In this document: positions 8,379 to 50,546 of the stretch, one piece after another
Layout of the letters: the number at the start of each line of letters is the position of its first letter
Numbering within the stretch: the stretch's first letter is position 1
NCBI RefSeq assembly: GCF_002864685.1
Contig: NZ_NMQZ01000003.1
Location: 62,001-126,000, forward strand
Direction of reading: 5' to 3'
Length of the DNA stretch: 64,000 nt
DNA from: Alloalcanivorax mobilis
GTDB lineage: Bacteria > Pseudomonadota > Gammaproteobacteria > Pseudomonadales > Alcanivoracaceae
The notes under the pieces: model-generated
The model's input: only the letters and a program-made list of their open reading frames with translations
Database searches by the model: none
Told to the model about the DNA's origin: nothing
Program-made: the position numbers and the translations under genes

Positions 8379-9233
8379 ATGAAAATCACCATTCTCAGCG
8401 GACGTTCCGGTTCGGGCAAAACCACGGCCCTGCAAGCCCTGGAAGACCACGGCTACTACTGCGTGGACAACCTGCCCCTGGGGCTGCTGCCCACCCTGGT
8501 CACCCAGCTGGAAGCCGAGGAACACCCGCTTAATCGGGTCGCGGTGGGCATCGACGCCCGCAACCTGCCGCGCCAACTGCTGGCCTTCACCACCACTCTG
8601 GACGAATTGCGCGCCAGCCAGGTGGACACCGAGATCATCTTTCTGGAGGCCGAGCCGGCCAGCCTGCTCAAGCGCTTCAGCGCCACCCGCCGGCGCCACC
8701 CGCTGAGCGGCGACAACCGCACGCTGGCCGACGCCATCGAATACGAAGCGCAACTGCTCGCCGACATTCGCATGCGCGCCGATCTGGTCATCGACACCAG
8801 CAGCCTGGACGTGCACAGCCTGCGCAATATGATCCGCCAGCGGGTGGCCCGTCGCGACGTCAGCCTGTCGCTGCTGATCCAGTCGTTCGGCTACAAGAAC
8901 GGCCTGCCCTACGACTCCGATCTGGTGTTCGACGTGCGCGCCCTGCCCAACCCCCACTGGCATAACGATCTGCGCCCGTTCACCGGCCGCGACGAAAAAG
9001 TGGCGGAATTTCTGCGCGGGCACCCGGAAAGCGGCGCCCTGCTCGACGACATCTTCAATTACCTGACCCGCTGGCTGCCGGTCTACGCCGCCAATGACCG
9101 CAGCTACGTCACCGTGGCGATCGGCTGCACCGGTGGCCGCCATCGGTCGGTGTACATCACCGAACAACTGGCCCAGCGTTTGCGCGACGACGGCATTCCC
9201 CTGCACGTGCGGCACCGGGAACTGGACGGATGA
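8379..9233 (+). CDS. rapZ: RNase adapter protein RapZ
   Basis: A 284-residue protein of the YvcJ/RapZ family. The N-terminal kinase-like fold contains the Walker A motif GRSGSGKTT (residues 8-16). The C-terminal RNA-binding domain carries CTGGRHRSVY. In enterobacteria RapZ delivers the sRNA GlmZ to RNase E to tune glucosamine-6-phosphate synthase; in other gammaproteobacteria the target is less clear. The stop overlaps the ptsO start (ATGA). Confidence 0.96.
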   Translation: MKITILSGRSGSGKTTALQALEDHGYYCVDNLPLGLLPTLVTQLEAEEHPLNRVAVGIDARNLPRQLLAFTTTLDELRASQVDTEIIFLEAEPASLLKRFSATRRRHPLSGDNRTLADAIEYEAQLLADIRMRADLVIDTSSLDVHSLRNMIRQRVARRDVSLSLLIQSFGYKNGLPYDSDLVFDVRALPNPHWHNDLRPFTGRDEKVAEFLRGHPESGALLDDIFNYLTRWLPVYAANDRSYVTVAIGCTGGRHRSVYITEQLAQRLRDDGIPLHVRHRELDG

Positions 9234-24596: not shown

Positions 24597-24681
24597 GTGG
24601 GAGCGGCTCTCAAGCTTGGCTGGGCTCTTGATGGTCAAGCCTCGCCTTTCAGGCTCGGTTCGCGGTCAAAGACCCGCTCCC
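24597..24681. repeat. REP-type inverted repeat, second copy
   Basis: It begins GTGGGAGCGG and ends CCGCTCCCA, and contains the linker GCCTCGCCTTTCAGGCTCGG shared with the 14015-14098 element. Arms are less perfect than in the first copy. A run of eight A follows (24682-24689), which on the minus strand gives a T-run after a GC-rich arm. Confidence 0.7.
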
Positions 24682-24688
24682 AAAAAAA

Positions 24689-25004
24689 ATCAAAGGACGT
24701 CGCTGGCAGGGCCTGCTCCTACGCGGCGCTGTAGCAGGGCTGTCGGCGTTACGATGCGCCGGTACCGATCTGGAGGGCCCTCCCCTTGTTGTGTCGCCGA
24801 GGCGCGGGACATTGATAGGGTCAGTTGGCCAGGGACGGCCAACTGAGGCGGCGAACAACAGGATGCCGTCTCGTCGCCGACCCGGCCATCAATTTCCCGC
24901 GACTCGGGTACCCGAAGGGCGACACAACGGGGTGTCCTTCTTTGTCTACTTTCTTGGACAAGCAAGAAAGTAGAACGCCCAACAGGGCGTCAGCGGCGAT
25001 GGGA
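24689..25004. repeat. Modular intergenic repeat, copy 1
   Basis: About 316 bp of non-coding DNA that reappears as a reverse complement at 45447-45900. Nested palindromes include GTTGGCC-AGGGAC-GGCCAAC (24822-24845), GAGGGCCCTC, CGGGTACCCG and the CTACTTTCTT/AAGAAAGTAG hairpin (about 24946-24974). No frame in it looks like a protein. Together with the REP at 24597 and a partial repeat at 25060 it fills the 24523-25141 gap between the MFS gene and tldD, which otherwise holds nothing. Confidence 0.85.
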
Positions 25005-25059
25005 GACACCTCATCACACCCGTTACGCTTGCGGACACCATAGAATCTCCCACAAAAAA

Positions 25060-25112
25060 ATCAAAGGATGTCGCTGGCACGGCCTGCTCCTACAGCGGCT
25101 GCGTAGCAGGCC
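25060..25112. repeat. Partial repeat of the left end of the modular element, with hairpin downstream of tldD
   Basis: The stretch ATCAAAGGATGTCGCTGGCA and the following GGCCTGCTCCTAC repeat the sequence at 24689-24722 directly. The GGCCTGCTCC/GTAGCAGGCC arms form a GC-rich hairpin. In the direction of tldD (minus) it is followed by an eight-base T-rich run near 25053-25061, so it could act as the tldD terminator. Confidence 0.55.
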
Positions 25113-39077: not shown

Positions 39078-39866
39078 ATGATGACTCTCAGCGACGCTCT
39101 TCCCGGCTTCACGGCCCTGGCGCGGGATTACAAGAAACTGGGCAGCGAATTGAGCGCGCCGGTTTCCGCGCTGGCCAGCGCGCGGGCCTGCGCGGCGGGT
39201 GAGCGGCTGACGCCCAACCCGGACTGCCTGTATCTGGTGCGCGGCGGCACGCTGGTGGCGCATCACGGCGAGCGTCGGCTGTTCGCGTGCGACGAAGGCG
39301 ACTGGCTGCCGTTGATGCCGGAGGTGGGCTATCACGCCGAAGGGGCGGTGTTGTTGGCGGAGTATCCCCGCCCGGCGGTCCAACAGCGCTGGCGTGACGA
39401 CCCACGTCTGGCGTGCCGATGGGAGCGCCTGGAAAATCTGCGCAGCCGCCTTCTGGTCTGCATGCTGGCGGCCCGCGTGGGCAGCGAACACCACACCGAC
39501 TCGACGTTTGTTTACGCCCGCCCCGGCGACGATCTGATCCGCCAGGGCGAACGCGCCGATGACGTCTATCATCTGTTCGAGGGGCAGGCACAGGTGTTGG
39601 TGAACGGCGTCGCCGTGGGCCAGGTCGGCGAAGGGGAACTGCTCGGCGCCATCGCGGTACTGACCGGCGCACCACGCAACGCCACGGTGCGGGCGCTGAC
39701 GCCCTGCTCGGCGCTGCGCGTACCCGGCCAGCAGTTTCATCAGTTGATCAGCAGTCATCCTTCATTGATCGAACGGTTGCTGGGCGACATGGCGCGCCAG
39801 ATCACCGGTTTGAACGATCGTCTGGTGGCGCTCTCGGAACCCGCTCAGGGCAATGGCGCGGGCTGA
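39078..39866 (+). CDS. Cyclic-nucleotide-binding-domain protein
   Basis: A 262-residue protein with a first cupin-like/degenerate CNB segment (about 20-110) and a clear CNB fold (about 135-240): FVYARPGDDLIRQGERADDVYHLFEG, shown by the sub-motifs GDDLIRQGE and GEGELLGAIAVLTG with the PRNATVRA phosphate cassette, RxAT-like. No DNA-binding helix-turn-helix follows, so it is more likely a sensor or adaptor than a CRP regulator. Tandem ATGs (39078, 39081) both fit. It is convergent with the hybrid kinase gene and overlaps it by 22 bases. Confidence 0.75.
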   Translation: MMTLSDALPGFTALARDYKKLGSELSAPVSALASARACAAGERLTPNPDCLYLVRGGTLVAHHGERRLFACDEGDWLPLMPEVGYHAEGAVLLAEYPRPAVQQRWRDDPRLACRWERLENLRSRLLVCMLAARVGSEHHTDSTFVYARPGDDLIRQGERADDVYHLFEGQAQVLVNGVAVGQVGEGELLGAIAVLTGAPRNATVRALTPCSALRVPGQQFHQLISSHPSLIERLLGDMARQITGLNDRLVALSEPAQGNGAG

Positions 39867-41668
39867 TCGCCGGCGGCCAGCCACTGGCAAAGCACGGCAT
39901 GCAGTTGCGCCGGTTGCAGCGGCTTTTGCAACACCAGGTAACCCTCACGCTCGGCGTGTTCCAGTGTTGGCGAACGGAATTCGCCGCTGACCATGGCGCC
40001 ACTGGCGTGCGGGCAGGCTTCCAGCAACGCCTGCAACACCTGGAAACCGCTCTCGCCGGAACGCAGACGCTGGTCACACAGAATCGCCCGCGGACGAAAA
40101 CCCCCGCGCAACAGGGCGAACGCCTCATCGCCACCCGCCACGCAACGCACCGATACGCCCCAGGCCCGCATCAGGCTCTGCCAGGCCTGAGTCACCATGG
40201 GGTCATCGTCCACCACCAGACAGGCGCCGGTGAGCGGCGCCAGCCGGATCTCCGCTGCAGTGCCACCACCGGCCGCCGCCAACCCGGCGGCGCCATGCAG
40301 GCGCGCCGCCGCCGGCAACGACAACCAAAAGCGCGAGCCCCGCCCGGGCACCGAATCAAGGCCGTAGCGGGCGCCCATCAAATTGGCGCTGCGCGCCACC
40401 ACCGCCAGCCCCAAACCGTGGCCGGCACTGTCGATGTTCCAGGCGTGGGCGTTGCGGTAAAACAGCGCATAAATGTTTTTTTGTTCGTCGCTGGCGACGC
40501 CAATACCAGTGTCCCACACCTCCAGCATCCAATCCGGGCCGCGCCGGCGCGCCGACACCAGCACCCCGCCGCGCGGCGTGTACCGCAACGCGTTGTGCAC
40601 CAGGTTGACCAAGCAACGGCGAATCAGGCCGGCGTCGCCAAAGGCGACCGCGCTGGTGGTGGCCAGGCGCATGCGCAATTCAAGACCGCGACTGTTCGCC
40701 TCGGCGCGGAACATCGCCACCACATCCTCGACGATGGCCTTCAGCCGCACCGGCTCGCGTTGCGGATTGACCACGCCGGCTTCCAGCTTGGACAGATCCA
40801 ACAGCGAGTTGAACATCAGGTTCATCGAACGCACGCTCTGTTGAAGATCACGGATCGGCGCCGCCAGCGTTTCGTCGCGATTGCGCTGCGCGATCGCCTG
40901 AATCAGAAACCCCATGGCGTGCACCGGTTGGCGCAGATCGTGGCTGGCGGTGCTCAGAAACTGGTTCTTATCCTGCAGAGCGCGCTGTGCCTCATCCCGT
41001 GCCATGCGATAGCGTTCCGCCAGGCGCGCGCCCTGCTCTTCCAGATTCACCTGTTGTACGAAGAAGCGGTGCGAGGTGACACCGTGGCGATACAGGGCCA
41101 CCGCGAACAGCACCGCCATCGGCAACACATACGGCCAATGCTGGGGAAAGCTCCAGGGCACCAGGATCAGTAGGAACAGCCAGCAGGTCAGAAAGAAGCG
41201 TTGAAACACCCCCCATAGCGGCGTCTGGTGGGCGGCGTTGGCGGCCATGGTGCCGGCAATGGACGCGTGCAGCACGGCGGTGTATTCGAAGCTGACCCTG
41301 CCCGCCGTCAGCGTCAGCATCGCCGCCAACCCGAGCCCATGCAGCACGGCGATCCGGTTAACGATTGGAATCCATTTTTCCAGCAACGCCAGGGCAGCGT
41401 ATTGGCAGCGGTCGCGTCGGTAACGCCGGGCCAACACGAACAGCGCCAGCGCCGCCAGGCAGTATATCGCCAGCAACAGGCCCATCCAGGCGATGTCCCG
41501 GTTGAGCAGGTAAAACCAAACGGTATAGGGGACGCCGGCCAGGGGCGTCATCGACACACTGTAGAACAACCGCGAGCGGGTCATGTCCAGCAGGCGTACC
41601 CGGCCCGCGGCGCTGAGATCGTTGATTCGCGGCGGCGTACCCGGCGCCGGCTCCGCCTCGACATTCAC
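39845..41668 (-). CDS. Hybrid sensor histidine kinase with C-terminal receiver
   Basis: A 607-residue membrane kinase. Six hydrophobic segments lie in about 33-200, without a periplasmic sensor domain. They are followed by a coiled linker, a HisKA domain (STASHDLRQPVHAMGFL, the phospho-His in SHDLRQP), a HATPase domain (NLVHNALRYTPRGG, WDTGIGVASDE, GHGLGLAVV) and a receiver domain (ACLVVDDDPMV, with the acceptor aspartate in AILCDQRLRSGESG). Its ATG overlaps the stop of the upstream response regulator, so the pair is one transcription unit. The signal is unknown; membrane-embedded sensing is inferred from the lack of loops. Confidence 0.9.
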   Translation of the reverse strand: MNVEAEPAPGTPPRINDLSAAGRVRLLDMTRSRLFYSVSMTPLAGVPYTVWFYLLNRDIAWMGLLLAIYCLAALALFVLARRYRRDRCQYAALALLEKWIPIVNRIAVLHGLGLAAMLTLTAGRVSFEYTAVLHASIAGTMAANAAHQTPLWGVFQRFFLTCWLFLLILVPWSFPQHWPYVLPMAVLFAVALYRHGVTSHRFFVQQVNLEEQGARLAERYRMARDEAQRALQDKNQFLSTASHDLRQPVHAMGFLIQAIAQRNRDETLAAPIRDLQQSVRSMNLMFNSLLDLSKLEAGVVNPQREPVRLKAIVEDVVAMFRAEANSRGLELRMRLATTSAVAFGDAGLIRRCLVNLVHNALRYTPRGGVLVSARRRGPDWMLEVWDTGIGVASDEQKNIYALFYRNAHAWNIDSAGHGLGLAVVARSANLMGARYGLDSVPGRGSRFWLSLPAAARLHGAAGLAAAGGGTAAEIRLAPLTGACLVVDDDPMVTQAWQSLMRAWGVSVRCVAGGDEAFALLRGGFRPRAILCDQRLRSGESGFQVLQALLEACPHASGAMVSGEFRSPTLEHAEREGYLVLQKPLQPAQLHAVLCQWLAAGDQPAPLP

Positions 41669-42327
41669 AATCGCAAGGCACGGCCGTGCAGCAAGGTAAT
41701 CACCTCGATGCGGTTGCTGACGCCCAATCGTTGCAGAATGGCGGTGATGTGTTCCTTGACGGTCTGCTCGGTGACGTTTAAGGCGCTGGCGATGCGCTTA
41801 TTGGGCAAGCCGCGCAGCATCATCGCCAGCACTTCGCCCTGGCGCCGGGTCAGCCCCAGATCCACGGGGCTGACCTGCAACGGGTGGCGCCCCCGGCCCG
41901 GCGCGGCGGCCTGCCCATCGGCGTCGGTGAACCAGGTTTTGCCCCGCCGCACCGCCCGCACCGCGCGGGCGAAGGTTTCCGGCGGATCGTTTTTATGAAT
42001 GAATCCCCGGGCTCCCGCCGCGCGCACCTGGCTGGCGATGCCAACGCCATCGTCGCCGCTCATCACCAGCACGTTCGCTGCTGCCCGTGCCGCCGAGAGC
42101 GTTTTCAATAAGTCCAACGCGGAACCATCAGCCAGCCAGAAATCGACGATCACCAACTCCGGCTGGCCATGGCGAGCGATCCAAGCCAGGCATTCCGCAC
42201 CGCCGGCCGCGCAGTGCACCCACGCGTAGCCGCAGTGCGACGACAGGTAACCGGCAACGCCGCGCATCACCAGCGGGTGGTCATCCACCACCAGAGCATA
42301 GCCGGCATGTCCGTCACCCTCGTTCAT
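41665..42327 (-). CDS. LuxR/NarL-type response regulator
   Basis: A 220-residue regulator with a receiver domain (VVDDHPLVMRGV; acceptor aspartate in LVIVDFWLADGSALD; conserved lysine in GFIHKNDPPETF) and a NarL-type helix-turn-helix (LTRRQGEVLAMMLRGLPNK, then ALNVTEQTVKEHITAIL). It is the cognate partner of the hybrid kinase it overlaps. The ATG at 42327 has GAAGGG at a good distance; an ATG three codons earlier has none. A perfect palindrome lies 43 bases upstream and may be its own operator. Confidence 0.92.
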   Translation of the reverse strand: MNEGDGHAGYALVVDDHPLVMRGVAGYLSSHCGYAWVHCAAGGAECLAWIARHGQPELVIVDFWLADGSALDLLKTLSAARAAANVLVMSGDDGVGIASQVRAAGARGFIHKNDPPETFARAVRAVRRGKTWFTDADGQAAAPGRGRHPLQVSPVDLGLTRRQGEVLAMMLRGLPNKRIASALNVTEQTVKEHITAILQRLGVSNRIEVITLLHGRALRL

Positions 42328-42369
42328 TGCTCGCATCCCTTCATTGTGCTGCCTCGCCCATGCACGAAA

Positions 42370-42387: not shown

Positions 42388-42538
42388 GGTCGAGCGCGGC
42401 GGCCGGCGATAGCGTTCCGCTTATGTCGCCGAAGCGCCCGTTGGGGGGAATTGGACGGTATCCGGGCCCTGCCGGTCCGCGCACCAGGTCCCATTATCGG
42501 CGTGTTGGCCTAGTAACCTCATTCTTTGGAGCACACCA

Positions 42539-42793
42539 ATGAAACTCAAAAACAGCCTTATCGCCGCCGTCGCCGCGTCCGCCCTCGGCGTTTCCGTCAG
42601 TGCCCAGGCCGGCTTCCTGGACAAACTCAATGAAAAGATGGATCAGGCTTCCGAGGCCGTCGCCTCGGTGCAGAAAAAAACCGACGACACCATGAACTCC
42701 GTGCAGAGTACGGTGAAATCGGTTCAGGACACCGGCCAGTCGGTGCACGACACCAAAGAAAGCGTCACCACCATCGGCCAGCCTGACCACTGA
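42539..42793 (+). CDS. Small exported protein of unknown function
   Basis: An 84-residue protein with a clear signal peptide (positive start MKLKNSL, hydrophobic core, cleavage near SAQA/GF at 22-23). The mature part is Ser/Thr/Val/Gln/Asp-rich, with weak repeats KSVQDTGQSVHDTKESV suggesting an amphipathic helix or coiled coil. It has no cysteines. TTGGAG sits before the ATG. It is divergent from the two-component pair and convergent with the DoxX gene. I do not recognise a family. Confidence 0.75.
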   Translation: MKLKNSLIAAVAASALGVSVSAQAGFLDKLNEKMDQASEAVASVQKKTDDTMNSVQSTVKSVQDTGQSVHDTKESVTTIGQPDH

Positions 42794-42813
42794 CCGCCGG
42801 CGGCGGTGACAGT

Positions 42814-42847
42814 GGCGAGGGCGAGGGCGAGGGCGAGGGCGAGGGCG
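42814..42847. repeat. GGCGAG hexanucleotide tandem repeat
   Basis: 5.7 perfect copies of GGCGAG, placed between the stop codons of the small exported protein and the doxX gene. It ends one base short of the doxX stop codon. Being outside promoters and coding sequence, it is unlikely to cause phase variation. Confidence 0.85.
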
Positions 42848-42848
42848 G

Positions 42849-43367
42849 TCAATCGATCCCCAGGCGTCGATCCAGCGAGACAGCACCGGCGCCACGGCCG
42901 ATCAGATACAACAGCAAAGCGGCCCACGACAGATGTGTGACCCAGGCATCGGGATAAACAAAGATCTCGATCACCAGCGTCATCGCCAACAACGCCATCG
43001 CCGACAGCCGGGTGAACAGGCCCAGTATCAGCAGTAACGGCAACACATGCTCAGCGTAGGTGGCCAGATGGGCGGCGATCTCCGGCGCGATCAGCGGCAG
43101 TTGGTATTCGTAGCGGAACAGCGCGTAGGTGCTGTCTTTGACGGTCAGCAGGCCACTCACCTTGGTACGCCCGGACAACAGAAAGATCGCCGCCACCGAG
43201 ACACGCGCCAGTAACGCCAGCAGCGTCGGTGTGATCACTCTGTTCAGGCCTTGTGCAAGCCGGTTCCAGCGCCCGGTCAGGCCGCGCGCCGCCGGCGGTG
43301 GGCCGTCGGCATCATGGTGCGCGGCGGCCTTGCCGGCGCCCGTGCTTTGCATGCTTGTGCGATTCAT
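42849..43367 (-). CDS. DoxX-family membrane protein of the bufferin operon (GigD-like)
   Basis: A 172-residue DoxX protein with four membrane helices (from about residue 45: [18 protein letters not shown]; further helices near 90-110, 115-135 and 140-160). A DoxX gene closes DUF2282-DUF692-DUF2063 operons such as the Legionella gig operon; its role there is unknown, and a redox or membrane function is inferred. AAGGAA precedes the ATG at 43367. It starts 13 bases after the DUF2063 gene. The first 40 residues are polar and Pro/Ala/His-rich. Confidence 0.88.
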
Positions 43368-43380
43368 GGCGGGTTCCTTT

Positions 43381-44121
43381 TCAGTGACAATGGGGTAACG
43401 GCTCGGCGGCAAAGGCGCCGGCCTTCAGTAATGTGGCCAGTAACGTGGCCAGATCGGTGCCCGGCTTGTGCTTTAATGCCCGCTCGGCGGCGGCCGCCAA
43501 GGGCAGCCCTTCGGCGCAGGCATTCAGAAAAAACACACCGGCGACCCCCAAAGCCTGCCAGCGCACCTCTGCGCCCGGCCGGGTTAACAACGCGCCTTCT
43601 CCGCGCCAGTGCAGAGGCTCGGGCACGGCCCGTTGTTCCCGGTTGGCGCTCCACAGGGTGAACACCGGCTGATCGTCAAACCAATGCCAACGCGCCGCCG
43701 GGTGAGGGCTCAATACCCGCGCCGCCAGGGCGTCCGGGGTTTGCTCAGCCACCAAGGCGGCCGCCAGGCAGCTCCGGTCGGCGGCCACGTGGGCTTCGCT
43801 CCAACCGCGATCCAACCGGGCCACGCCCGCCAGATAAGGCAGGCCGGCGGCCGGCTCGAAACCGGCCAGGAAATCGGCGAAGCCGTCGCCGTACAGGTAC
43901 AGCCGCGGGTCATTGGGCGGCGAGGTTCGCGCGTATACCAACGCGGCGGCCCGGAACCAGGGTTCGCCGACCAGTCGCGCCACCGTCGGGAAATTCGCCT
44001 GCAGGGCGTCCACGCAGGCTTTCAATAGGGTGTTGCGGTAAACCCGCACGCCGGCGCGGCCACCGTCGGCATCGTAAAGATTCCGCAGAAAATCCCGCTG
44101 AAAGCCCGCCAGCGCTGTCAT
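43381..44121 (-). CDS. bufC: DUF2063 RiPP maturation partner (BufC/HvfC/MbnC-like)
   Basis: A 246-residue protein. The N-terminal DUF2063 domain (about 1-95) shows [10 protein letters not shown], the [27 protein letters not shown] region and FADFLAGF; the rest is the usual less conserved C-terminal domain. These proteins pair with DUF692 enzymes as RiPP-recognition partners that bring the leader peptide to the active site. The ATG overlaps the DUF692 stop (ATGA). The protein ends in PHCH, a possible metal ligand, but this may be chance. Confidence 0.92.
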
Positions 44122-44975
44122 GGCATGCTCTCCAACCGCTCCAGCAACGCCTGGGCGCGTGCCCGTTCCGCCAGCAAAACGTCGAAGCTGGGGATGTTGC
44201 CATCCCGTTCGATCAGGGTAGGCACCGGCCCGGCGCGTTCAATAACGGCGCGATAAAGCTCCCATACCGGGTCCGCCACTGGCTGATCGTGGGAATCGAT
44301 CAGCAGCGTTTCGCCCGTGTCCTCGGCCTGGTCTGGTGCGTCCACGCTGTGCCCGGCGAGATGGATTTCCATCACCGCCGAGAGCGGGAAATCCAGCAGA
44401 TAGCGTTGCGCGTCAAAACACAGATTGTGGGCGCTGATGAACACGTTATTGATGTCCAGCAGCAAACCGCAGCCGCTGCGTTCGCACAGTTCGGCCAGGA
44501 ACGCCTGCTCGGTATACCGGTGCCCCGGCACCGGCAGGTAGTGGGTGGGATTTTCGATGGCGATGCGCCGACCAAGACTGTCTTGAACCCGGGCGATGTT
44601 GTCGGCGATCACCGCCAGCGCCTCATCGCTGCGCGGAAACGGCAACAGATCGGGGTAGTAATGGCCGCCGGTCGCCGACCAGGCCAGGTGCTCGGAAACC
44701 AGCATCGGATCGACCCGTTCGACCAGCTTTCTGAAGCGCCGCAGGTGCCGCGCATCCGGCGGCGCCGGCGCCGCCAGTGACATCGCCACGCCATGCAGCG
44801 ACAACGGATGGCGCTCGGCGATGGCGTCCAGCCACGCCAGGCGCGGGCCGCCGTCGACCATATAATTTTCCGGGTGCACCTCAAACCACAGGCCGCCCGC
44901 GCGACAATCGCGGGCGGCCTGAAAGTAATCCGGCTTAAGGCTCAGACCCGCCCCCGGCCGTATCGGTGCGTTCAT
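44118..44975 (-). CDS. bufB: DUF692 multinuclear non-heme iron oxidase (MNIO), BufB/HvfB-like
   Basis: A 285-residue TIM-barrel enzyme of the MbnB/BufB family, which uses two or three irons to oxidise cysteines in a precursor peptide. Candidate ligands are in LSLHGVAMSL, LVSEHLAWS, IENPTHYL, LLDINNVFISAHN, EIHLAGH and LIDSHDQPV, matching the His/Glu/Asp pattern of the family. The start GAGLSLKPDYF is characteristic. It lies 23 bases after the DUF2282 precursor gene and overlaps bufC. The predicted substrate is that precursor (inference from operon and family). Confidence 0.95.
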   Translation of the reverse strand: MNAPIRPGAGLSLKPDYFQAARDCRAGGLWFEVHPENYMVDGGPRLAWLDAIAERHPLSLHGVAMSLAAPAPPDARHLRRFRKLVERVDPMLVSEHLAWSATGGHYYPDLLPFPRSDEALAVIADNIARVQDSLGRRIAIENPTHYLPVPGHRYTEQAFLAELCERSGCGLLLDINNVFISAHNLCFDAQRYLLDFPLSAVMEIHLAGHSVDAPDQAEDTGETLLIDSHDQPVADPVWELYRAVIERAGPVPTLIERDGNIPSFDVLLAERARAQALLERLESMP

Positions 44976-44998
44976 CCGCGATCAACGCCGTGCGTGGC

Positions 44999-45280
44999 TC
45001 AGGATTCCATCGGCTTCAGAGAGCCGTGGCCGTTCGGCGTCTTGATCGACGTGCAGGTGCCTTCCGGAACCAGGGTCCAGGCGTTGCCCTGATAATCCAT
45101 TTTGGAGGTGCCGGCGCAGCTGGTGCCCGGGCCTGCTTTGCAGTCGTTGTGGCCGGCCAGGGAAACGCCGTAGCATTTTTCCATCGGCTGGTCGGCGGCG
45201 TGATCCTGGGCGGCCAGAGCCACGCCGGACGCCAGGGAAGACACGATCAGAGTGGTGGCGGAAAGGGTCAGTTTGTTCAT
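44999..45280 (-). CDS. bufA1: DUF2282 RiPP precursor, bufferin-1 type (BufA1/GigA-like)
   Basis: A 93-residue precursor with a Sec-type signal peptide (about 1-23, cleavage after VALA). The mature part has four cysteines (C36, C47, C55, C76) in the DUF2282 pattern [15 protein letters not shown] ... SCAGTSK ... VPEGTC. In characterised bufferins the DUF692/DUF2063 pair converts cysteines into copper-binding thiooxazoles, and the product protects against excess copper. The C-terminal tail (from about 80, [14 protein letters not shown]) differs from the usual ending. Only one precursor gene is present, no DUF2282/EGKCG tandem. It is the first gene of the operon. Confidence 0.93.
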
Positions 45281-45322
45281 TTCGATAACACCTCTAACGA
45301 ATCAAAAGGAAGGAAGCTCACC

Positions 45323-45353
45323 GTGGCGGCGATCAACCGATGATCGCCGCCAC
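45323..45353 (-). promoter_or_regulatory. Perfect hairpin in the predicted 5' leader of the bufferin mRNA
   Basis: The arms GTGGCGGCGATC and GATCGCCGCCAC (12 bp, no mismatch) flank a 7-base loop. If transcription starts about 8 bases after the CGAA motif (near 45355), the mRNA begins almost exactly with this stem-loop, which would suit 5'-end protection or translational control. It lies 43 bases before the precursor start. Confidence 0.6.
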
Positions 45354-45362
45354 CCTTTCCAA

Positions 45363-45388
45363 TTCGTTGTCGGTGTGTGTCCGGTTAC
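45363..45388 (-). promoter_or_regulatory. ECF sigma (SigF-type) promoter of the bufferin operon
   Basis: On the minus strand, GTAACC (45388-45383) and CGAA (45366-45363) are separated by exactly 16 bases. This is the GTAACC-N16-CGAA promoter described for the Caulobacter ECF factor SigF, whose regulon includes DUF2282/DUF692 operons. The same exact motif occurs at the ECF sigma gene at 48524. I found no other exact copy by eye. Confidence 0.75.
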
Positions 45389-45446
45389 AGAGGCGAGAAA
45401 AAAGGTTCATCGCGGAATAGCGGGAATTGACTCATGCTGATCCACT

Positions 45447-45900
45447 TCCCATCGCCGCTGACGCCCTGTTGGGCGTTCTACGTTCTTGCTTGTCCAAGAA
45501 AGTAGACACATCCCGCGCAGCGGGTGAACGCACGCAGTGCGGGCCGTAGGCCGGAGCGAAGCGGAGTCAAGAAGGACACCCCGTTGTGTCGCCCTTCGGG
45601 TACCCGAGTCGCCGGAAATTGATGGCCGGGTCGGCGACGAGACGAGCCTGCGGCCCCGGCCCCGAGCCGGCATGCTCGGGGCGCTACGCCGGGCGAAGCA
45701 ATGCTTCGCTTGATCCGGCTTCGCCCTGTCGTCCGCCGCCTCAGTTGGCCGTCCCTGGCCAACTGACCCTATCAATTTCCCGCGCCTCGGCGACACAACA
45801 AGGGGGAGGGCCCTCCAGATCGGTACTGGGCGCGCCGTAACGCTGACAGCCCCTCTACAGCGCCACGTAGGAGCAGGCCCTGCCAGCGACATATTTTGAT
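45447..45900. repeat. Modular intergenic repeat, copy 2 (inverted relative to copy 1)
   Basis: The reverse complement of 24689-25004, with high identity outside two extra modules. Module B (about 45509-45568, hairpins CCCGCGCAGCGGG, GGCCGTAGGCC) and module A (about 45646-45727, with GCGAAGCAATGCTTCGC and GAGCCGGCATGCTCGG) are absent from copy 1. Shared palindromes are CAGTTGGCC/GGCCAACTG (45742-45765), CGGGTACCCG and the TTCTTGCTTGTCCAAGAA hairpin. No protein-coding character was seen. Confidence 0.85.
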
Positions 45901-45903
45901 CTT

Positions 45904-45926
45904 ATGGCTGAGCGGTCCTCGACCGC
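45904..45926. repeat. REP-like fragment
   Basis: TGAGCGGTCCTCGACCGCGA repeats the core of the REP-type arms at 14015-14098 (GCGGTCC-TTGACCGCGAA). Only one arm is present. It is adjacent to copy 2 of the modular repeat, as the REP at 24597 is adjacent to copy 1. Confidence 0.55.
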
Positions 45927-46025
45927 GAACCGGCGCAGCCGGACGGCGTTCCAGTCCTCGCCAGGCTTATTTCCCTGCCGCAACCCGGCGGTGTGATGAC
46001 CCGTGGCGGTGACGCTGCTCAGTGA

Positions 46026-46213
46026 GCGGGGCAAGGGCGGGGCCTGGAGGGAGCAGTTTGGCCAGGGATGGCCAAACAAACAGCGGCCTTGGGTGAGGCA
46101 AGCAGGTTGCGAAGCACTGCTTCGCGCGCCGCCGAACGCCGCCCATCTGCGATGGGTGGCCGGGCCCGCTCGCGGGGCTTGAGCGGTCCCGGAAGGCACC
46201 GCCCTTGCCCCGC
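46026..46213. repeat. Nested palindromic element closed by 15-bp arms
   Basis: GCGGGGCAAGGGCGG (46026-46040) and its exact reverse complement (46199-46213) enclose smaller hairpins: TTTGGCCA-GGGA-TGGCCAAA (46057-46076), GCGAAGCACTGCTTCGC, and CGCCCATC/GATGGGTG. The GGCCAGGGAYGGCC core is shared with the modular repeats. With those, it fills the 1-kb non-coding gap 45281-46294. The remaining pieces (45927-46025 and 46214-46294) show nothing recognisable. Confidence 0.75.
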
Positions 46214-46294
46214 GCCCCAATGGAGCGACCCAGCCGCGAGCCAAAAAAGGCTTCCCGTCAATCCGCGATGAACCCAAAAAACCGGCAACCGGCA

Positions 46295-47101
46295 TTACAA
46301 CGCCGAGTGATCCCGCACCGCCTCTTCCAGGTCCGCTTTCATGCCCAGAAAGCGCTGATCCAATGCTTGCGGGTTTTCCCGGTTCATGGCGATCATGGCG
46401 GCGCGGGCCTCGCCACCACGAATCACCTGCAAGGCACCCTGCTGCATGCCCGCGATCATCGCCTCGGCCACCGCGCCGGGGGATTCCTTGTTGAAGCCCA
46501 GGTCCGGCCCGGCCCGGGATGACCCCATCATCGGCGTGTCGGTGGCGCCGGGGTACAGGGTCATCACCTGAATCCCTTCGCCGTTCAACTCCCGGCGCAA
46601 CGCTTCACCAAAGTGCGACAACCCCGCTTTCACGGCGGCGTAGGTGGTGTAAAACGGCATGCCGATCAGAGCGATGCCGGACGCCACATTGACCACCATC
46701 GCCTCGCCGCTGGCGCGCAGCGCGGGCAAGGCGGCGCGGGTCAGCAAAATGGGCGCCAGCAGATCCACGGTCAGCATGGTGCTGATCTCGTCCTCACTGG
46801 TGTGCTCCAGGCGTCCAGCGCGCACGCCTCCGGCGTTGTTGATCAGAATGTCCAAGCCGCCGAGACACTCCAGGGCTTTGTTCAAGGTCGCCTCGCGGCC
46901 CGCCGGCGTAGCCAGATCGGCGGCCACGCCCTCGACCTGGCCACCGCCGGCACGCAACCGCTCCACCGCCTGGCTCAACGCCTCCGGTCGGCGGCCGCTG
47001 ATCACCAGGCGCGCCCCCGCCGCCGCCAGCGCCTCGGCGGCGGCCAGGCCGATGCCACTGGAGCCACCGGTCAGCAATACTCGTTTATCGGTGAGATTCA
47101 T
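46295..47101 (-). CDS. Short-chain dehydrogenase/reductase
   Basis: A 268-residue classical SDR: cofactor loop TGGSSGIGLAAAEAL, DLAT, the NNAGG motif, catalytic Ser in VNVASGIALIG, and YTTYAAVKAG with Tyr and Lys of the active site. NADP preference is suggested by the Arg pair SGRRPE after beta-2. The ATG at 47101 is preferred to the one at 47104 because GGAGG lies only one base before the latter. It is coupled to the GST gene, so both probably act on the same class of electrophilic compound. Confidence 0.9.
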   Translation of the reverse strand: MNLTDKRVLLTGGSSGIGLAAAEALAAAGARLVISGRRPEALSQAVERLRAGGGQVEGVAADLATPAGREATLNKALECLGGLDILINNAGGVRAGRLEHTSEDEISTMLTVDLLAPILLTRAALPALRASGEAMVVNVASGIALIGMPFYTTYAAVKAGLSHFGEALRRELNGEGIQVMTLYPGATDTPMMGSSRAGPDLGFNKESPGAVAEAMIAGMQQGALQVIRGGEARAAMIAMNRENPQALDQRFLGMKADLEEAVRDHSAL

Positions 47102-47814
47102 CATGCCTCCGGCTTTTGCACAGGGTAATTGGAGGGAAACAAGGCGCGGCGGGTTTCTTCGTCCATGTCCTTTTTAAACGAGTGATCCTTACCGACGGCC
47201 CGCGCCCGCGCCACGGCGGGCCGGCTGTCGACGCGCTCAAACCAGGCCCGCAAATGGGCAAACGCCGCCAGCGGGTCGTCCTCTCCAGCCAGCGCCACCG
47301 GCGCCCGGTCCAGCCATCCCCAGGCGGACATATCGACGATTGAGTAGTCCTCACCCAGCAGGTAATCGCGGCCCTGCAGACGTTCATCGAGCACCTGATA
47401 ATGGCGCTGCACTTCGCGCCGATAACGATTAATGGCGTAGTCGTTCTTTTCCGGCGCCATGTGCTGGAAGTGCACCGCCTGCCCGGAATACGGCCCCACG
47501 CCAGAGGCGATAAAAAACAGCCAGGACAACAATTCCGGCCGGATCTCCGCGGGGCCCAGGAAACGGCCACTCTTTTCCGCCAGATACAACAAAATAGCAC
47601 TGGAATCGAACAGCCGCGCCGGCGCGCCGCCAGGGCCGTCGTGGTCAACGATGGCCGGCACCTTGGCATTCGGATTGATGGCACGAAACGCCGCCAGGTG
47701 CTGTTCGCCCTTGCGCGTATCCACCGGCTTGAGCTGGTATTCAAGGCCGGCCTCTTCCAACATCAAGGCGACTTTCGCCGGGTTCGGGGTGGGGTGAAAA
47801 TAGAAGTCAATCAT
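47101..47814 (-). CDS. Glutathione S-transferase family protein
   Basis: A 237-residue GST with an N-terminal thioredoxin-like domain (FYFHPTPNPAKVALMLEEAGLEYQ region; VPAIVDHD cis-Pro motif; FDSSAILLYLAE glutathione-binding SSA) and an all-helical C-terminal domain (YSIVDMSAWGW, N-capping box). It resembles the YfcG/Ure2p-like nu class rather than detoxifying classical classes. It is divergent from the TetR regulator, the probable repressor, and its stop overlaps the SDR start. Confidence 0.92.
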   Translation of the reverse strand: MIDFYFHPTPNPAKVALMLEEAGLEYQLKPVDTRKGEQHLAAFRAINPNAKVPAIVDHDGPGGAPARLFDSSAILLYLAEKSGRFLGPAEIRPELLSWLFFIASGVGPYSGQAVHFQHMAPEKNDYAINRYRREVQRHYQVLDERLQGRDYLLGEDYSIVDMSAWGWLDRAPVALAGEDDPLAAFAHLRAWFERVDSRPAVARARAVGKDHSFKKDMDEETRRALFPSNYPVQKPEA

Positions 47815-47838
47815 GCTGTCTCCACGAGCGATTTTTCA

Positions 47839-47859
47839 TTTTAGATCGATCGTTTTAGA
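47839..47859. promoter_or_regulatory. Candidate TetR operator in the GST/TetR divergent region
   Basis: TTTTAGA-TCGATCG-TTTTAGA: a direct repeat of TTTTAGA around the palindromic ATCGAT/CGATCG core. AT-rich and placed between the two divergent start codons (101-base gap), as expected for a TetR-family site controlling both genes. Confidence 0.45.
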
Positions 47860-47915
47860 ATAGGCACAATCGCTACCCCGTGACAATACAAAAGCCGCCT
47901 CGCCAAGGAGCCGCC

Positions 47916-48506
47916 ATGGCACGACCGAGACAATTCGACGAGCGCACCGTGCTCGACGCCGCCGTGCAATGCTTTTGGAAGCACGGCTATGAAGCCACCT
48001 CGATTCGCGATCTGGCTCATCACATGAACCTGACCGGCGCCAGCCTTTACAACGCCTTCGGCGACAAGCGCGCGCTCTACCGGCGCGCATTGGATCACTA
48101 CCTCGCCAACAGCTTCGGCGAGCGGGTCGGCCGGTTCGAAGACAAGCTGCCGCCCGCCGAGGCGATTCGCTCGTTTCTCAACGAGATCGTCGAGCGCTCG
48201 CTGAGCGACCCGGACCGCAAAGGATGCATGCTGGTCAATTCCGCCCTGGAGGTGGCCCCCCACGACGCCGATTTCCAGCGCGTGGTGAGCGACATGCTGA
48301 CCCAGGTGGAGGGCTTTTTTTACCGCTGTGCACTGGCCGGACAGCGCGATGGCAGCATTGCCGACGACCAGTCCCCCGAGGATCTGGCGCGCTTTCTGCT
48401 CGGCGTTTTAATGGGCATTCGGGTGCTGGCGCGCAGCCGCCCGGAACCGGCCTTGCTGCACGGCCTGGTGAAGCCGGCGTTCGCTCTGCTCAAGGCGCAT
48501 CGATGA
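47916..48506 (+). CDS. TetR/AcrR-family transcriptional regulator
   Basis: A 196-residue repressor. The helix-turn-helix (about 1-50) shows FDERTVLDAAVQCFWKHGYEATSIRDL, by sub-motifs VLDAAVQCFWKHGYEATS and LTGASLYNAFGDKRALY. The C-terminal ligand domain contains the KGCMLVNSALE segment typical of the YxaF/AcuR-like group that responds to electrophiles. CAAGGAG precedes the ATG at 47916. It is divergent from gst-sdr and probably represses them. The stop is 33 bases before the ECF sigma gene. Confidence 0.92.
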   Translation: MARPRQFDERTVLDAAVQCFWKHGYEATSIRDLAHHMNLTGASLYNAFGDKRALYRRALDHYLANSFGERVGRFEDKLPPAEAIRSFLNEIVERSLSDPDRKGCMLVNSALEVAPHDADFQRVVSDMLTQVEGFFYRCALAGQRDGSIADDQSPEDLARFLLGVLMGIRVLARSRPEPALLHGLVKPAFALLKAHR

Positions 48507-48523
48507 TTTTTTTCCGGCACGGC

Positions 48524-48549
48524 GTAACCGGTAGCCACCATGCAGCGAA
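48524..48549 (+). promoter_or_regulatory. Second GTAACC-N16-CGAA motif, at the ECF sigma gene
   Basis: GTAACC (48524-48529) and CGAA (48546-48549), spacer exactly 16 bases, identical in layout to the site upstream of the bufferin operon. It suggests autoregulation, but the CGAA lies inside the first codons of the longest reading frame (ATG at 48540), so a transcript from it would lack that ATG. Confidence 0.5.
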
Positions 48550-49109
48550 CTGAGAAAGACGCACAACAGCGAACCGAGGCGCGCCTGCGGGATCTTTTCC
48601 TGGCCGGTCTGAACGGTGAGGCGCGCCTCTACCAGCAGTTTCTGGAAAGCCTGAGCGGCCATTTGCGCGCGTTCCTGCGCCGGCGCCTGTTCCATTCCCA
48701 CAACGACGTGGAAGATCTGCTGCAGGAAGTATTGATGGCGGTGCACAATGCGCGCCACACCTATCGGCCAGAGCAACCGCTGACCGCCTGGGTGTACGCC
48801 ATCGCCCGCTATAAGCTGATGGATCACCTGCGCGCGCACGCGCGCCGGGACACGTTCAACGATCCCCTGGAGGATCATCAGGCGCTGTTCGCGGCGGACG
48901 ACGACGAACCGGCCCGCGCCCGCCGTGATCTGCACAAACTGCTGGAGGCGCTGCCCGAACGTCAGCGGTTGCCGATTGTGCATGTTAAATTACAGGGGCG
49001 TTCGGTGGCGGAAACGGCGCGCCTGACCGGGTTGTCCGAATCCGCCGTGAAAATTGGCGTGCACCGGGGTTTGAAGGCCCTGGCGGCACGCATGCGAGAG
49101 GATCAATGA
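48540..49109 (+). CDS. ECF RNA polymerase sigma factor, SigF/ECF16-like
   Basis: A 189-residue ECF sigma factor. Region 2 (about 28-95) has NDVEDLLQEVLMAVHNARHTYRP, by sub-motifs DVEDLLQEVLMAVH and LTAWVYAIARYKLMDHLR; region 4 (about 130-182) has GRSVAETARLTGLSESAVK. The early LFLAGLNGEARLYQQFLESL and the partner DUF1109 gene place it with Caulobacter SigF-type factors, which respond to heavy metals. The ATG at 48540 has no Shine-Dalgarno and overlaps its own candidate -10 element; a non-standard downstream start near LRDLFLAGL (CTG, about 48585) is an alternative. It overlaps the anti-sigma gene by 4 bases. Confidence 0.92.
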   Translation: MQRTEKDAQQRTEARLRDLFLAGLNGEARLYQQFLESLSGHLRAFLRRRLFHSHNDVEDLLQEVLMAVHNARHTYRPEQPLTAWVYAIARYKLMDHLRAHARRDTFNDPLEDHQALFAADDDEPARARRDLHKLLEALPERQRLPIVHVKLQGRSVAETARLTGLSESAVKIGVHRGLKALAARMREDQ

Positions 49110-49747
49110 AAACCGACGAGCTGATCACAATGCTGGCCACCGGGGTGGCCCCGGTACAGCGCCATTCGGTCGGCCGGCGCCTGGGTCTGGCCTTCGCGGT
49201 CGGGCTGGCCGGCGCATTGGCGTTGATGGCGCTGGTGTTCGGGCCGCGCCCGGATCTGGCCAGCGTGGCGGCGACGCCGGTGTTCTGGCTGAAACTGGCG
49301 TTTCCGTTCAGCCTTGTCCTGATCACGCTGTGGGCGAGCAGCCGTCTGGCGCGGCCCGGCGTGCCCGCCACCCGGGCAGTGGCGCTGATTGCCGTGCCCG
49401 TGATCGTGGTGCGGGGAGCGGCCCTGGTGGCGCTATTGCTGGCCCCGGCAACGGCCCGTTCGGAGCTGATTTTCGGCCATACCTGGCGCAGCTGTGTGTT
49501 CAATATTCAGTTGCTGGCGATTCCCACTTTCGTCACCGCCTTTGCTGCCTTGAGGGATCTGGCGCCGACGCGTCCGCGTCTCGCCGGCGCCGTCGCGGGG
49601 CTGTTCGCCAGCGCCACCGGCACGCTGGTCTATTGCCTGCATTGTCCGGAAATGGCCACGCCATTCTGGGCGGTCTGGTATCTGCTGGGCATGGCGGCGC
49701 CGACACTGATTGGCGCGGCACTCGGGCCACGGCTATTGCGCTGGTAG
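49106..49747 (+). CDS. nrsF: NrsF-like anti-sigma factor (DUF1109)
   Basis: A 213-residue membrane protein with six helices and a short cytosolic start (MKTDELITMLATGVAPV) that should bind the sigma factor. It carries cysteines C130 (TWRSC) and C177/C180 (YCLHCPE) in the periplasmic-side loops. In Caulobacter NrsF two conserved cysteines at nearly the same positions are needed for metal-triggered release of SigF. The ATG overlaps the sigma stop (ATGA). The TVYCLHC-like C-x2-C suggests direct metal or thiol sensing. Confidence 0.92.
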   Translation: MKTDELITMLATGVAPVQRHSVGRRLGLAFAVGLAGALALMALVFGPRPDLASVAATPVFWLKLAFPFSLVLITLWASSRLARPGVPATRAVALIAVPVIVVRGAALVALLLAPATARSELIFGHTWRSCVFNIQLLAIPTFVTAFAALRDLAPTRPRLAGAVAGLFASATGTLVYCLHCPEMATPFWAVWYLLGMAAPTLIGAALGPRLLRW

Positions 49748-49778
49748 GCGCGTTCTCCAGGCTTTTTCCCCGCGCACT

Positions 49779-50546
49779 TTATCCCCCACACACCGCGCAG
49801 CGGGAGTCCTTGCGGAAACGGATTTCCCGCCAACTCACGGTGCGGCCGTCGAACAGCCGCAACACCGGCGCCATTTCCTGGCCGGCGATCACCTGTATGG
49901 CAAGCAACGCCTGCAGGGTGCCAATGGCGCCGACCACCGGCCCCAGCACGCCAGCCTCGCTGCAGGCGAGATCACCGTCGGTGCCTTCGCCATACACGCA
50001 GGCGTAGCAGGCGTTGCCGGGATCGCGAAGATCAAACACCGCCAACTGACCGTCCATGCGAATGGCCGCCCCGCTGACCAGTGGTTTGGCGTGGCGCACG
50101 CAGGCCGCGTTGACGATCTGGCGAGTGGCGAAATTGTCGCTGCAATCCAGCAACACCGTGGCGTCGGGGAGATGGCGGTCAAGCCAGTCGGCGTCCGCCC
50201 GCGCCACGAAGGCGTCAACCCGGCTGTCCGGATTGAGCGCGCCGAGCCGGCGCGCCAGGGCGACGGCCTTGGCCTCGCCCAGGTCATCGCCGTGGAAGGC
50301 GATTTGCCGGTGCAGATTGCTCAGCTCAACGCGGTCGTCGTCCACCAACAGCAGCCGGCCAACGCCGGCGCCAGCCAGATACAGGGCCGCCGGGCTAGCC
50401 AGGCCACCGCAACCGACGATGATGACGGTGGCGGTGCTCAGCGCCTGCTGGCCATCCAGGTCGAATTCCTCGACCAGCAGTTGGCGGCTGTAGCGGAGCA
50501 GTTGCTGGTCATCCAGCGTGCGTTGGCGATCGGTGGAGTCAGACAT
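49779..50546 (-). CDS. moeB: Molybdopterin-synthase adenylyltransferase MoeB (ThiF/HesA family)
   Basis: A 255-residue E1-like enzyme that adenylates the C-terminus of MoaD. The ATP loop VGCGGLASPAALYLAGAGVG, DDDRVELSNLHRQ, CSDNFATRQ and the zinc cysteines YACVYG ... CAVCGG are intact. MoeB and ThiF cannot be separated with certainty from sequence alone; the position after prmC supports moeB. Its start overlaps the prmC stop by 8 bases. Confidence 0.9.
   Translation of the reverse strand: MSDSTDRQRTLDDQQLLRYSRQLLVEEFDLDGQQALSTATVIIVGCGGLASPAALYLAGAGVGRLLLVDDDRVELSNLHRQIAFHGDDLGEAKAVALARRLGALNPDSRVDAFVARADADWLDRHLPDATVLLDCSDNFATRQIVNAACVRHAKPLVSGAAIRMDGQLAVFDLRDPGNACYACVYGEGTDGDLACSEAGVLGPVVGAIGTLQALLAIQVIAGQEMAPVLRLFDGRTVSWREIRFRKDSRCAVCGG

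Follow-up and report, generated by a model that had tools for sequence, protein, structure and literature searches.

The core of a bufferin gene cluster has been described as a precursor, an MNIO enzyme, a DUF2063 protein and a DoxX protein, accompanied in Buf1 clusters by a sigma factor and NrsF (PMC12452194), and the class is regarded as widespread (PMC12452194, PMC13097082). In Caulobacter, the SigF regulon includes bufferin genes and is induced by copper, and a sigF mutant is copper-sensitive (PMC8224329). The sequence GTAACC-N16-CGAA is the SigF promoter of that organism (PMC3511200) and the promoter assigned to ECF16 sigma factors (PMC3420878), and replacement of Cys131/Cys181 in Caulobacter NrsF raises SigF-dependent expression (PMC3511200). 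We describe here a locus in a 64,000-nucleotide stretch of the Alloalcanivorax mobilis genome (contig NZ_NMQZ01000003.1, positions 62,001 to 126,000; hereafter the window, to which all positions refer) that is very probably a Buf1 (DUF2282) bufferin/captophorin operon, accompanied by its cognate ECF16 sigma factor and anti-sigma factor. The known class gains another host, and the arrangement of the locus is unusual. The operon lies on the minus strand, in the order bufA, bufB, bufC, doxX from 45388 to 42849:

44999..45280, minus strand: bufA, Buf1/DUF2282 precursor of 93 residues, with cysteines at 36, 47, 55 and 76 (PF10048, 90.3 bits)
44118..44975, minus strand: bufB, MNIO maturase of 285 residues (PF05114, MbnB_TglH_ChrH, 319.5 bits; NF050167, MNIO_BufB, 349.9 bits)
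43381..44121, minus strand: bufC, partner protein of 246 residues, DUF2063 with an RRE-like part, overlapping bufB by 4 bases
42849..43367, minus strand: DoxX (bufD/GigT) membrane protein, 172 residues from its ATG (PF07681, 63.1 bits)

An initial assessment made without database searches (the sequence-only reading) had proposed a bufferin/GIG-type copper operon for a ribosomally synthesized and post-translationally modified peptide, and this proposal is supported by what is presented below: the family profiles, the order of the genes, residue conservation, the fold of the partner and the promoter boxes. Open reading frames and Pfam profiles agree with its four-gene unit headed by a 93-residue, four-cysteine DUF2282 peptide, and the coordinates agree with the 4-base overlap of the MNIO and DUF2063 genes and the 13-base gap to doxX, whose ATG at 43367 is 13 bases past the bufC stop (the longest doxX reading frame begins at TTG 43412). 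The DUF2282 and DUF692 profiles, whose absence it had named as a refutation, match the precursor at 90.3 bits (cut-off 22.4) and the MNIO at 319.5 (cut-off 25). With Pfam cut-offs of 27.2 bits for DUF2063, which scores 67.0 on BufC, and 23.6 for DoxX, all four proteins are well above threshold, and chance is excluded for the four-gene set. Immediately past the doxX stop codon, at 42814-42843, are five tandem CTCGCC units (minus strand); no Rfam match was found in 42500-50000, and a terminator-like fold past doxX was no better than that of shuffled sequence (z -0.72).

NCBIfam models place the enzyme more finely. BufB scores 349.9 bits with MNIO_BufB (cut-off 310), 218 with HvfB (cut-off 360) and 46.2 with MbnB (TIGR04159; cut-off 325). 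Since the MbnB profile registers at all, and the MbnB chain 7dz9 is matched in a search of solved structures at E 5.6e-8, BufB belongs to the same enzyme superfamily, and one might picture a chalkophore-like peptide that, as methanobactin does, gathers scarce copper for cuproenzymes. We give this scarcely any credence, in view of the wide shortfall from the MbnB cut-off, a DUF2282 precursor whose N-terminus looks Sec-like, a stress-type regulation by SigF/NrsF, and the fact that copper or gold in excess induces related operons (PMC8224329, PMC5413113). The precursor itself has no NCBIfam HvfA match at E 0.001 or better and falls below the BufA2 equivalog NF050166 (22.7 against a cut-off of 60); judged by eye, its N-terminus is Sec-like and its mature part about 69-70 residues long. 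It is the one DUF2282 match in the whole genome. The precursor had been called single, which holds for DUF2282 and fails for the genome at large, where a second MNIO cluster, discussed below, has another precursor kind.

Conservation was assessed over 80 named relative loci found via BufB; by record title these are mostly Pseudomonas, so that counts over them are not independent. Homologues of BufA and BufC occur in all 80 and of DoxX in 78, and identities to the Pseudomonas/Paraburkholderia loci L020, L021 and L058 reach 69.0% for BufB and 68.5% for BufA. The four BufA cysteines are retained in 99-100% of 81 aligned rows. BufB residues H96, E141, D174, H205, D227, H229, E256 and D258 are present in 80/80 rows and are candidate metal-binding or catalytic residues. 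BufB aligns with the solved structure 3bww at E 3.3e-37. Through that alignment D227 and H229, within a DSH motif, may be taken to correspond to HvfB D242/H244, loss of which abolishes HvfB activity (PMC13419390).

Searches of solved structures by sequence gave no match for BufC and no significant one for BufA, and a BufC profile found the partner protein of the second MNIO cluster weakly (probability 10%, E 0.003). The predicted fold of BufC matches TglI and NGO1945, and on this model BufC is a DUF2063 partner with an RRE domain (PME type 1). On an older view, DUF2063 would be a regulator that binds DNA, and DoxX would oxidize Cu(I) as a subunit of a quinol oxidase; this view draws on the Pfam label of PF09836, 'putative DNA-binding domain', and on the GigT hypothesis (PMC10304878), and we regard it as extremely improbable.

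The C-terminal tail of the precursor had been singled out as unusual, a claim that we reject: GSL follows the last cysteine in 75/115 precursor rows and the fuller pattern G..GSLxP occurs in 64/115. The rows count the locus of the window twice and also contain near-identical loci and two L055 fragments. Among tails resembling that of the window, L026 has an end of the same kind and L058 has TPHGHGSLTPMES. Compared with these, the tail is the ordinary one of the clade.

The regulatory half of the locus comprises two genes and two promoter-like boxes:

48540..49109, plus strand: SigF-like ECF sigma factor, 189 residues from an ATG, start uncertain (NF009188, 303.9 bits, cut-off 250; Sigma70_r2 and r4_2)
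49106..49747, plus strand: NrsF anti-sigma factor, 213 residues, with Cys130 and Cys180 (PF06532, 249.9 bits), overlapping the sigma gene by 4 bases
45363..45388, minus strand: SigF (ECF16)-type box of bufABCD, GTAACC-N16-CGAA, from a motif scan
48524..48549, plus strand: SigF-type box overlapping the start of the sigma gene, whose ATG falls in the spacer from -35 to -10

The pattern GTAACC-N16-CGAA occurs twice in the window, before bufA and at the sigma gene, against 0.12 occurrences expected from shuffling, and the outer end that had been given to the operon, 45388, is the first base of the former box. When about 600 bases were scanned for each row, the strict box was present for 77/83 bufA rows and 63/70 sigma rows, with a spacing of 16 in every strict match among relative loci; a looser form was found for 81/83 and 68/70, and the reversed pattern for none of either. 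The box before bufA was absent from all 29 DUF2282 loci of the genome's own order, within stretches spanning only about 1.5 kb per side. Across the genome 17 matches were obtained versus 31 for the reversed pattern, so that a match outside the two window sites says little. One such box, in the middle of L004 (contig 11 of the window's genome, G000, position 8517), stands where an open frame of 264 codons begins and possibly marks a regulon member, or else is a chance occurrence. In NrsF, both Cys130 and Cys180 are present in 69/70 rows, the remaining row having a gap; by their numbering, without a Caulobacter alignment, they would correspond to Caulobacter Cys131/Cys181. From these comparisons, control by SigF/NrsF is seen to be the normal control of the clade. 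The box with its 16-base spacing offers a sharp promoter rule for bufferin loci of the SigF type, and in this respect more is gained from the comparison than from the single copy.

The position of the sigma gene start within its own promoter deserves separate attention. Of 68 sigma genes with a nearby box, that of the window among them, 58 have an ATG at the offset seen in the window, and in all but one of these it is in frame (57/58). Across 56 of these loci, codons 5, 7, 8 and 13 show most variation in the third position, as coding sequence does, although codons 6, 9, 11 and 12 show it in every position; the ATG in the promoter spacer is thus probably, though not certainly, used. In B. japonicum, the transcription start site of ecfF likewise overlaps the annotated ATG, which was there taken as a misannotation (PMC3420878). 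An alternative start codon lies within 26 bases after the -10 box in 51/68 sigma genes and none lies within 60 bases in seven, the window among them, where the first in-frame ATG, GTG or TTG is 113 bases after the -10 box and in-frame CTG codons occur at 35 and 50. Because it lies between the -35 and -10 boxes, the ATG cannot be carried by a transcript that SigF itself makes. An in-promoter start codon of this kind provides a testable point on the feedback of such sigma factors.

On the analogy of the Caulobacter bufferin 1 system, NrsF in the inner membrane would hold the sigma factor until envelope copper, or another thiol-reactive metal, acted on Cys130/Cys180 and freed it to initiate transcription at GTAACC-N16-CGAA upstream of bufA. 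BufB and the RRE-bearing BufC would then oxidize the inner cysteines, Cys47 and Cys55, of the unexported precursor to 5-thiooxazoles, with an expected loss of 8 H; after export via Sec, a disulphide would form between the outer Cys36 and Cys76, and the exported peptide would bind excess copper in the periplasm. For a cut after ALA, the calculated monoisotopic mass of the mature peptide is 7235.23 unmodified and would be 7225.16 with both heterocycles and the disulphide, the latter accounting for a further 2 H. These steps follow the bufferin/captophorin papers (PMC12452194, PMC13097082, PMC13419390), and modification, export, copper binding and induction in the present host are proposed from the family.

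Several points weigh against the assignment or against this scheme. NrsF reaches only 132.3 bits with NCBIfam NF042994 (cut-off 300), and the DoxX protein 45.1 with the HvfX family (cut-off 80); to these may be added the preponderance of Pseudomonas in the comparison set. An ATG inside the promoter means that autoregulation may depart from the simple scheme. When rpoQ was deleted from Cupriavidus metallidurans, metal-treated cells expressed gig more strongly, not less (PMC10304878); rpoQ, gigP and rsqA are not mentioned in PMC9045368. Finally, the Caulobacter sigma factor also answers chromate and cadmium (PMC3511200). This last response (to dichromate and cadmium), the discovery of the gig genes as gold-induced (PMC10304878), and the TetR/GST/SDR block interposed in the window would all suit a different main client, a metal or reactive species such as Cr, Cd, Au, Hg or HOCl, with copper secondary. 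That seems unlikely to us, the Caulobacter sigF mutant being copper-sensitive with no extra sensitivity to Cr or Cd (PMC3511200, PMC8224329).

As in its relatives, the ECF sigma/NrsF pair diverges from bufA, here from 3.3 kb upstream, with 3.1 kb between the two boxes. The sequence-only reading had held distant sigma control to be a distinguishing feature of this copy; the distance is indeed less usual, but not special, the control being that of the clade. The sigma gene is divergent and less than 2 kb from bufB in 65/80 loci and lies 5-6 kb away in 5/80. In the other 10/80 it is not in the available stretch, some of these stretches ending at contig ends; eight of the ten keep the bufA box, which may allow sigma control to be assigned where the sigma gene is not adjacent. 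In the window the intervening block is as follows:

47880..48506, plus strand: TetR regulator, ending 33 bp before the sigma ATG (PF00440, PF16925)
47101..47814, minus strand: GST-like protein, divergent from TetR (GST_N_2, GST_C_2)
46295..47104, minus strand: SDR oxidoreductase, overlapping the GST gene by 4 bases (PF00106, 162.9 bits)
45404..46274, no strand assigned: multicopy palindromic repeat element outside the operon, flanked by the bufA promoter and the SDR gene, with 23-nt arms that are 87% complementary

TetR homologues have MARPR near their start, so that the TetR start is probably ATG 47916 and not GTG 47880. The repeat at 45404-46274 is composite, with 23-nt inverted ends; its modules occur at many genome sites, and another copy in the window lies near 24656-25093. 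Queried as 45400-46290, it matched the genome at least 101 times when 40 of 213 candidates were scored, and several of these matches fall at contig ends.

A TetR homologue is found in 8/80 buf loci, counted as four lineages in view of the close likeness among L046, L048, L049 and L050 and the similarity of L025 to L033, and seven of the eight also have GST or SDR. These eight far exceed a rough expectation of about 0.006 (from 9/398 Pseudomonadaceae genomes, taking each locus as about 19 kb and each genome as 5.5 Mb), although not all eight loci are Pseudomonadaceae. The underlying surveys found this TetR in at least 9/398 Pseudomonadaceae genomes and in at least 1/390 genomes of the window's own order, the window's genome alone; since no more than 7 or 8 candidates were scored in any genome, both counts are lower bounds. 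Of the nine Pseudomonadaceae genomes, two have buf beside TetR; in the other seven no buf was found near it within the fetched stretch (short in two cases, 8,150 and 14,000 bases). In a test on 28 genomes, TetR appeared at E 1e-40 only in the six loci preselected as TetR-positive, and at E 1e-30 two additional matches appeared, distant from buf. We do not regard the TetR/GST/SDR block as a constant component of the system: with seven of nine TetR-bearing Pseudomonadaceae genomes showing no buf in the fetched stretch, the association amounts to enrichment rather than to a rule. Among the papers listed by a text search linking bufferins, TetR and GST none was related to the question, since 'bufferin' also matches 'buffering', and the main text of PMC12452194 mentions neither 'TetR' nor 'glutathione'.

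The arrangement varies among loci. In Dyella (L080), SDR, sigma and nrsF genes overlap on one strand and TetR is divergent; NrsF is encoded three times and an MNIO twice in this locus. Pseudomonas ceruminis (L046, 3948-12062) has two bufA copies and two NrsF genes, with two other genes between. In the window, tetR, the sigma gene and nrsF are collinear. The bufferin sigma factor could conceivably be wired here into a second sensor: full-length sigma would be made only from the tetR-side transcript, controlled by the TetR ligand, whereas the SigF-made transcript would yield mainly NrsF, as negative feedback, and a response would need both the TetR ligand and envelope copper acting via NrsF. This idea is unlikely; if it were true, the TetR ligand might perhaps be an electrophile on which the products of the divergent GST and SDR genes act.

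The history of the locus was approached through 13 genomes of the genus, the window's included. All 13 have moeB. The window's sigma factor occurs only in its own genome, the best matches elsewhere having at most 35% identity, and DUF2282 occurs in two, the second being a distant subtype. In none of the other 12 does buf or the sigma gene lie beside moeB (stretches of 6.5-11 kb, with a longer stretch for six). In G005-G008 the flanking neighbours of the island stand together (kinase, response regulator and the small protein at 42539-42793, then moeB), and in G005, the one of these examined, an unrelated gene lies between those flanks. In G012 a GST and a TetR gene lie between two of these flanking genes, at the same chromosomal site and without buf. 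This distribution suggests an acquired island, partly lost in G012. The hybrid histidine kinase and LuxR-type response regulator beside it (39845-42336) are common to G005-G008; the top NCBIfam match of the kinase is a NahK/ErcS-related domain, below cut-off.

The restriction of the set to this one genome within the genus, and the genes and repeat interposed, could also mean that the split pair no longer cooperates and that the operon, once acquired, has become a relic outside sigma control. We judge this very unlikely, both boxes being exact, the frames open, and the candidate catalytic and sensor residues intact.

The other MNIO of the genome (contig 43, L166 6527-8447) is of HvfB type (417.7 bits, cut-off 360), with an HvfC partner (318.2, cut-off 142) and a 94-residue precursor carrying four EGSCG repeats, with Ser for the Lys of EGKCG (HvfA domain 20.6, cut-off 19.5). 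As this cluster is HvfB/HvfC/HvfA-like, the host has two captophorin-type clusters.

Among the described systems closest to the locus is bufferin 1 of Caulobacter vibrioides (CCNA_03363-03366), with its DUF2282 precursor, DUF692 enzyme, partner and DoxX protein (PMC3511200, PMC8224329). The likeness extends, as far as the published descriptions go, to SigF (CCNA_03362) and NrsF (CCNA_03273), with the sigF/nrsF pair, GTAACC-N16-CGAA and the two conserved NrsF cysteines (PMC3511200, PMC8224329); unlike that of Caulobacter, the sigma pair of the window is placed 3.3 kb from bufA, behind the TetR, GST and SDR genes and the repeat. The gigPABT-rpoQ-rsqA genes of C. metallidurans comprise the same four genes, a 94-residue four-cysteine precursor and a divergent sigma/anti-sigma pair and are described as a divergon (PMC10304878); the arrangement in the window is interrupted. 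The layout had earlier been likened to those of Legionella and Haemophilus. The former comparison is a fair one, the GIG genes lpg2105-2108 of Legionella pneumophila encoding DoxX, DUF2063, DUF692 and DUF2282 proteins (PMC5413113), although that operon, unlike the present one, resides on an integrative conjugative element (PMC5413113). The latter is less apt: the oxazolin and fontiphorin systems (hvf, fon) share an MNIO with a DUF2063-RRE partner that make 5-thiooxazoles (PMC13097082), but their precursors, including that of Haemophilus hvf, are of another type, with EGKCG repeats (PMC13097082), and BufB of the window falls short of HvfB (218 vs 360). The Pseudomonas/Paraburkholderia buf loci (L020, L021, L058) have the same kind of tail and the same promoter, but with the sigma gene mostly within 2 kb.

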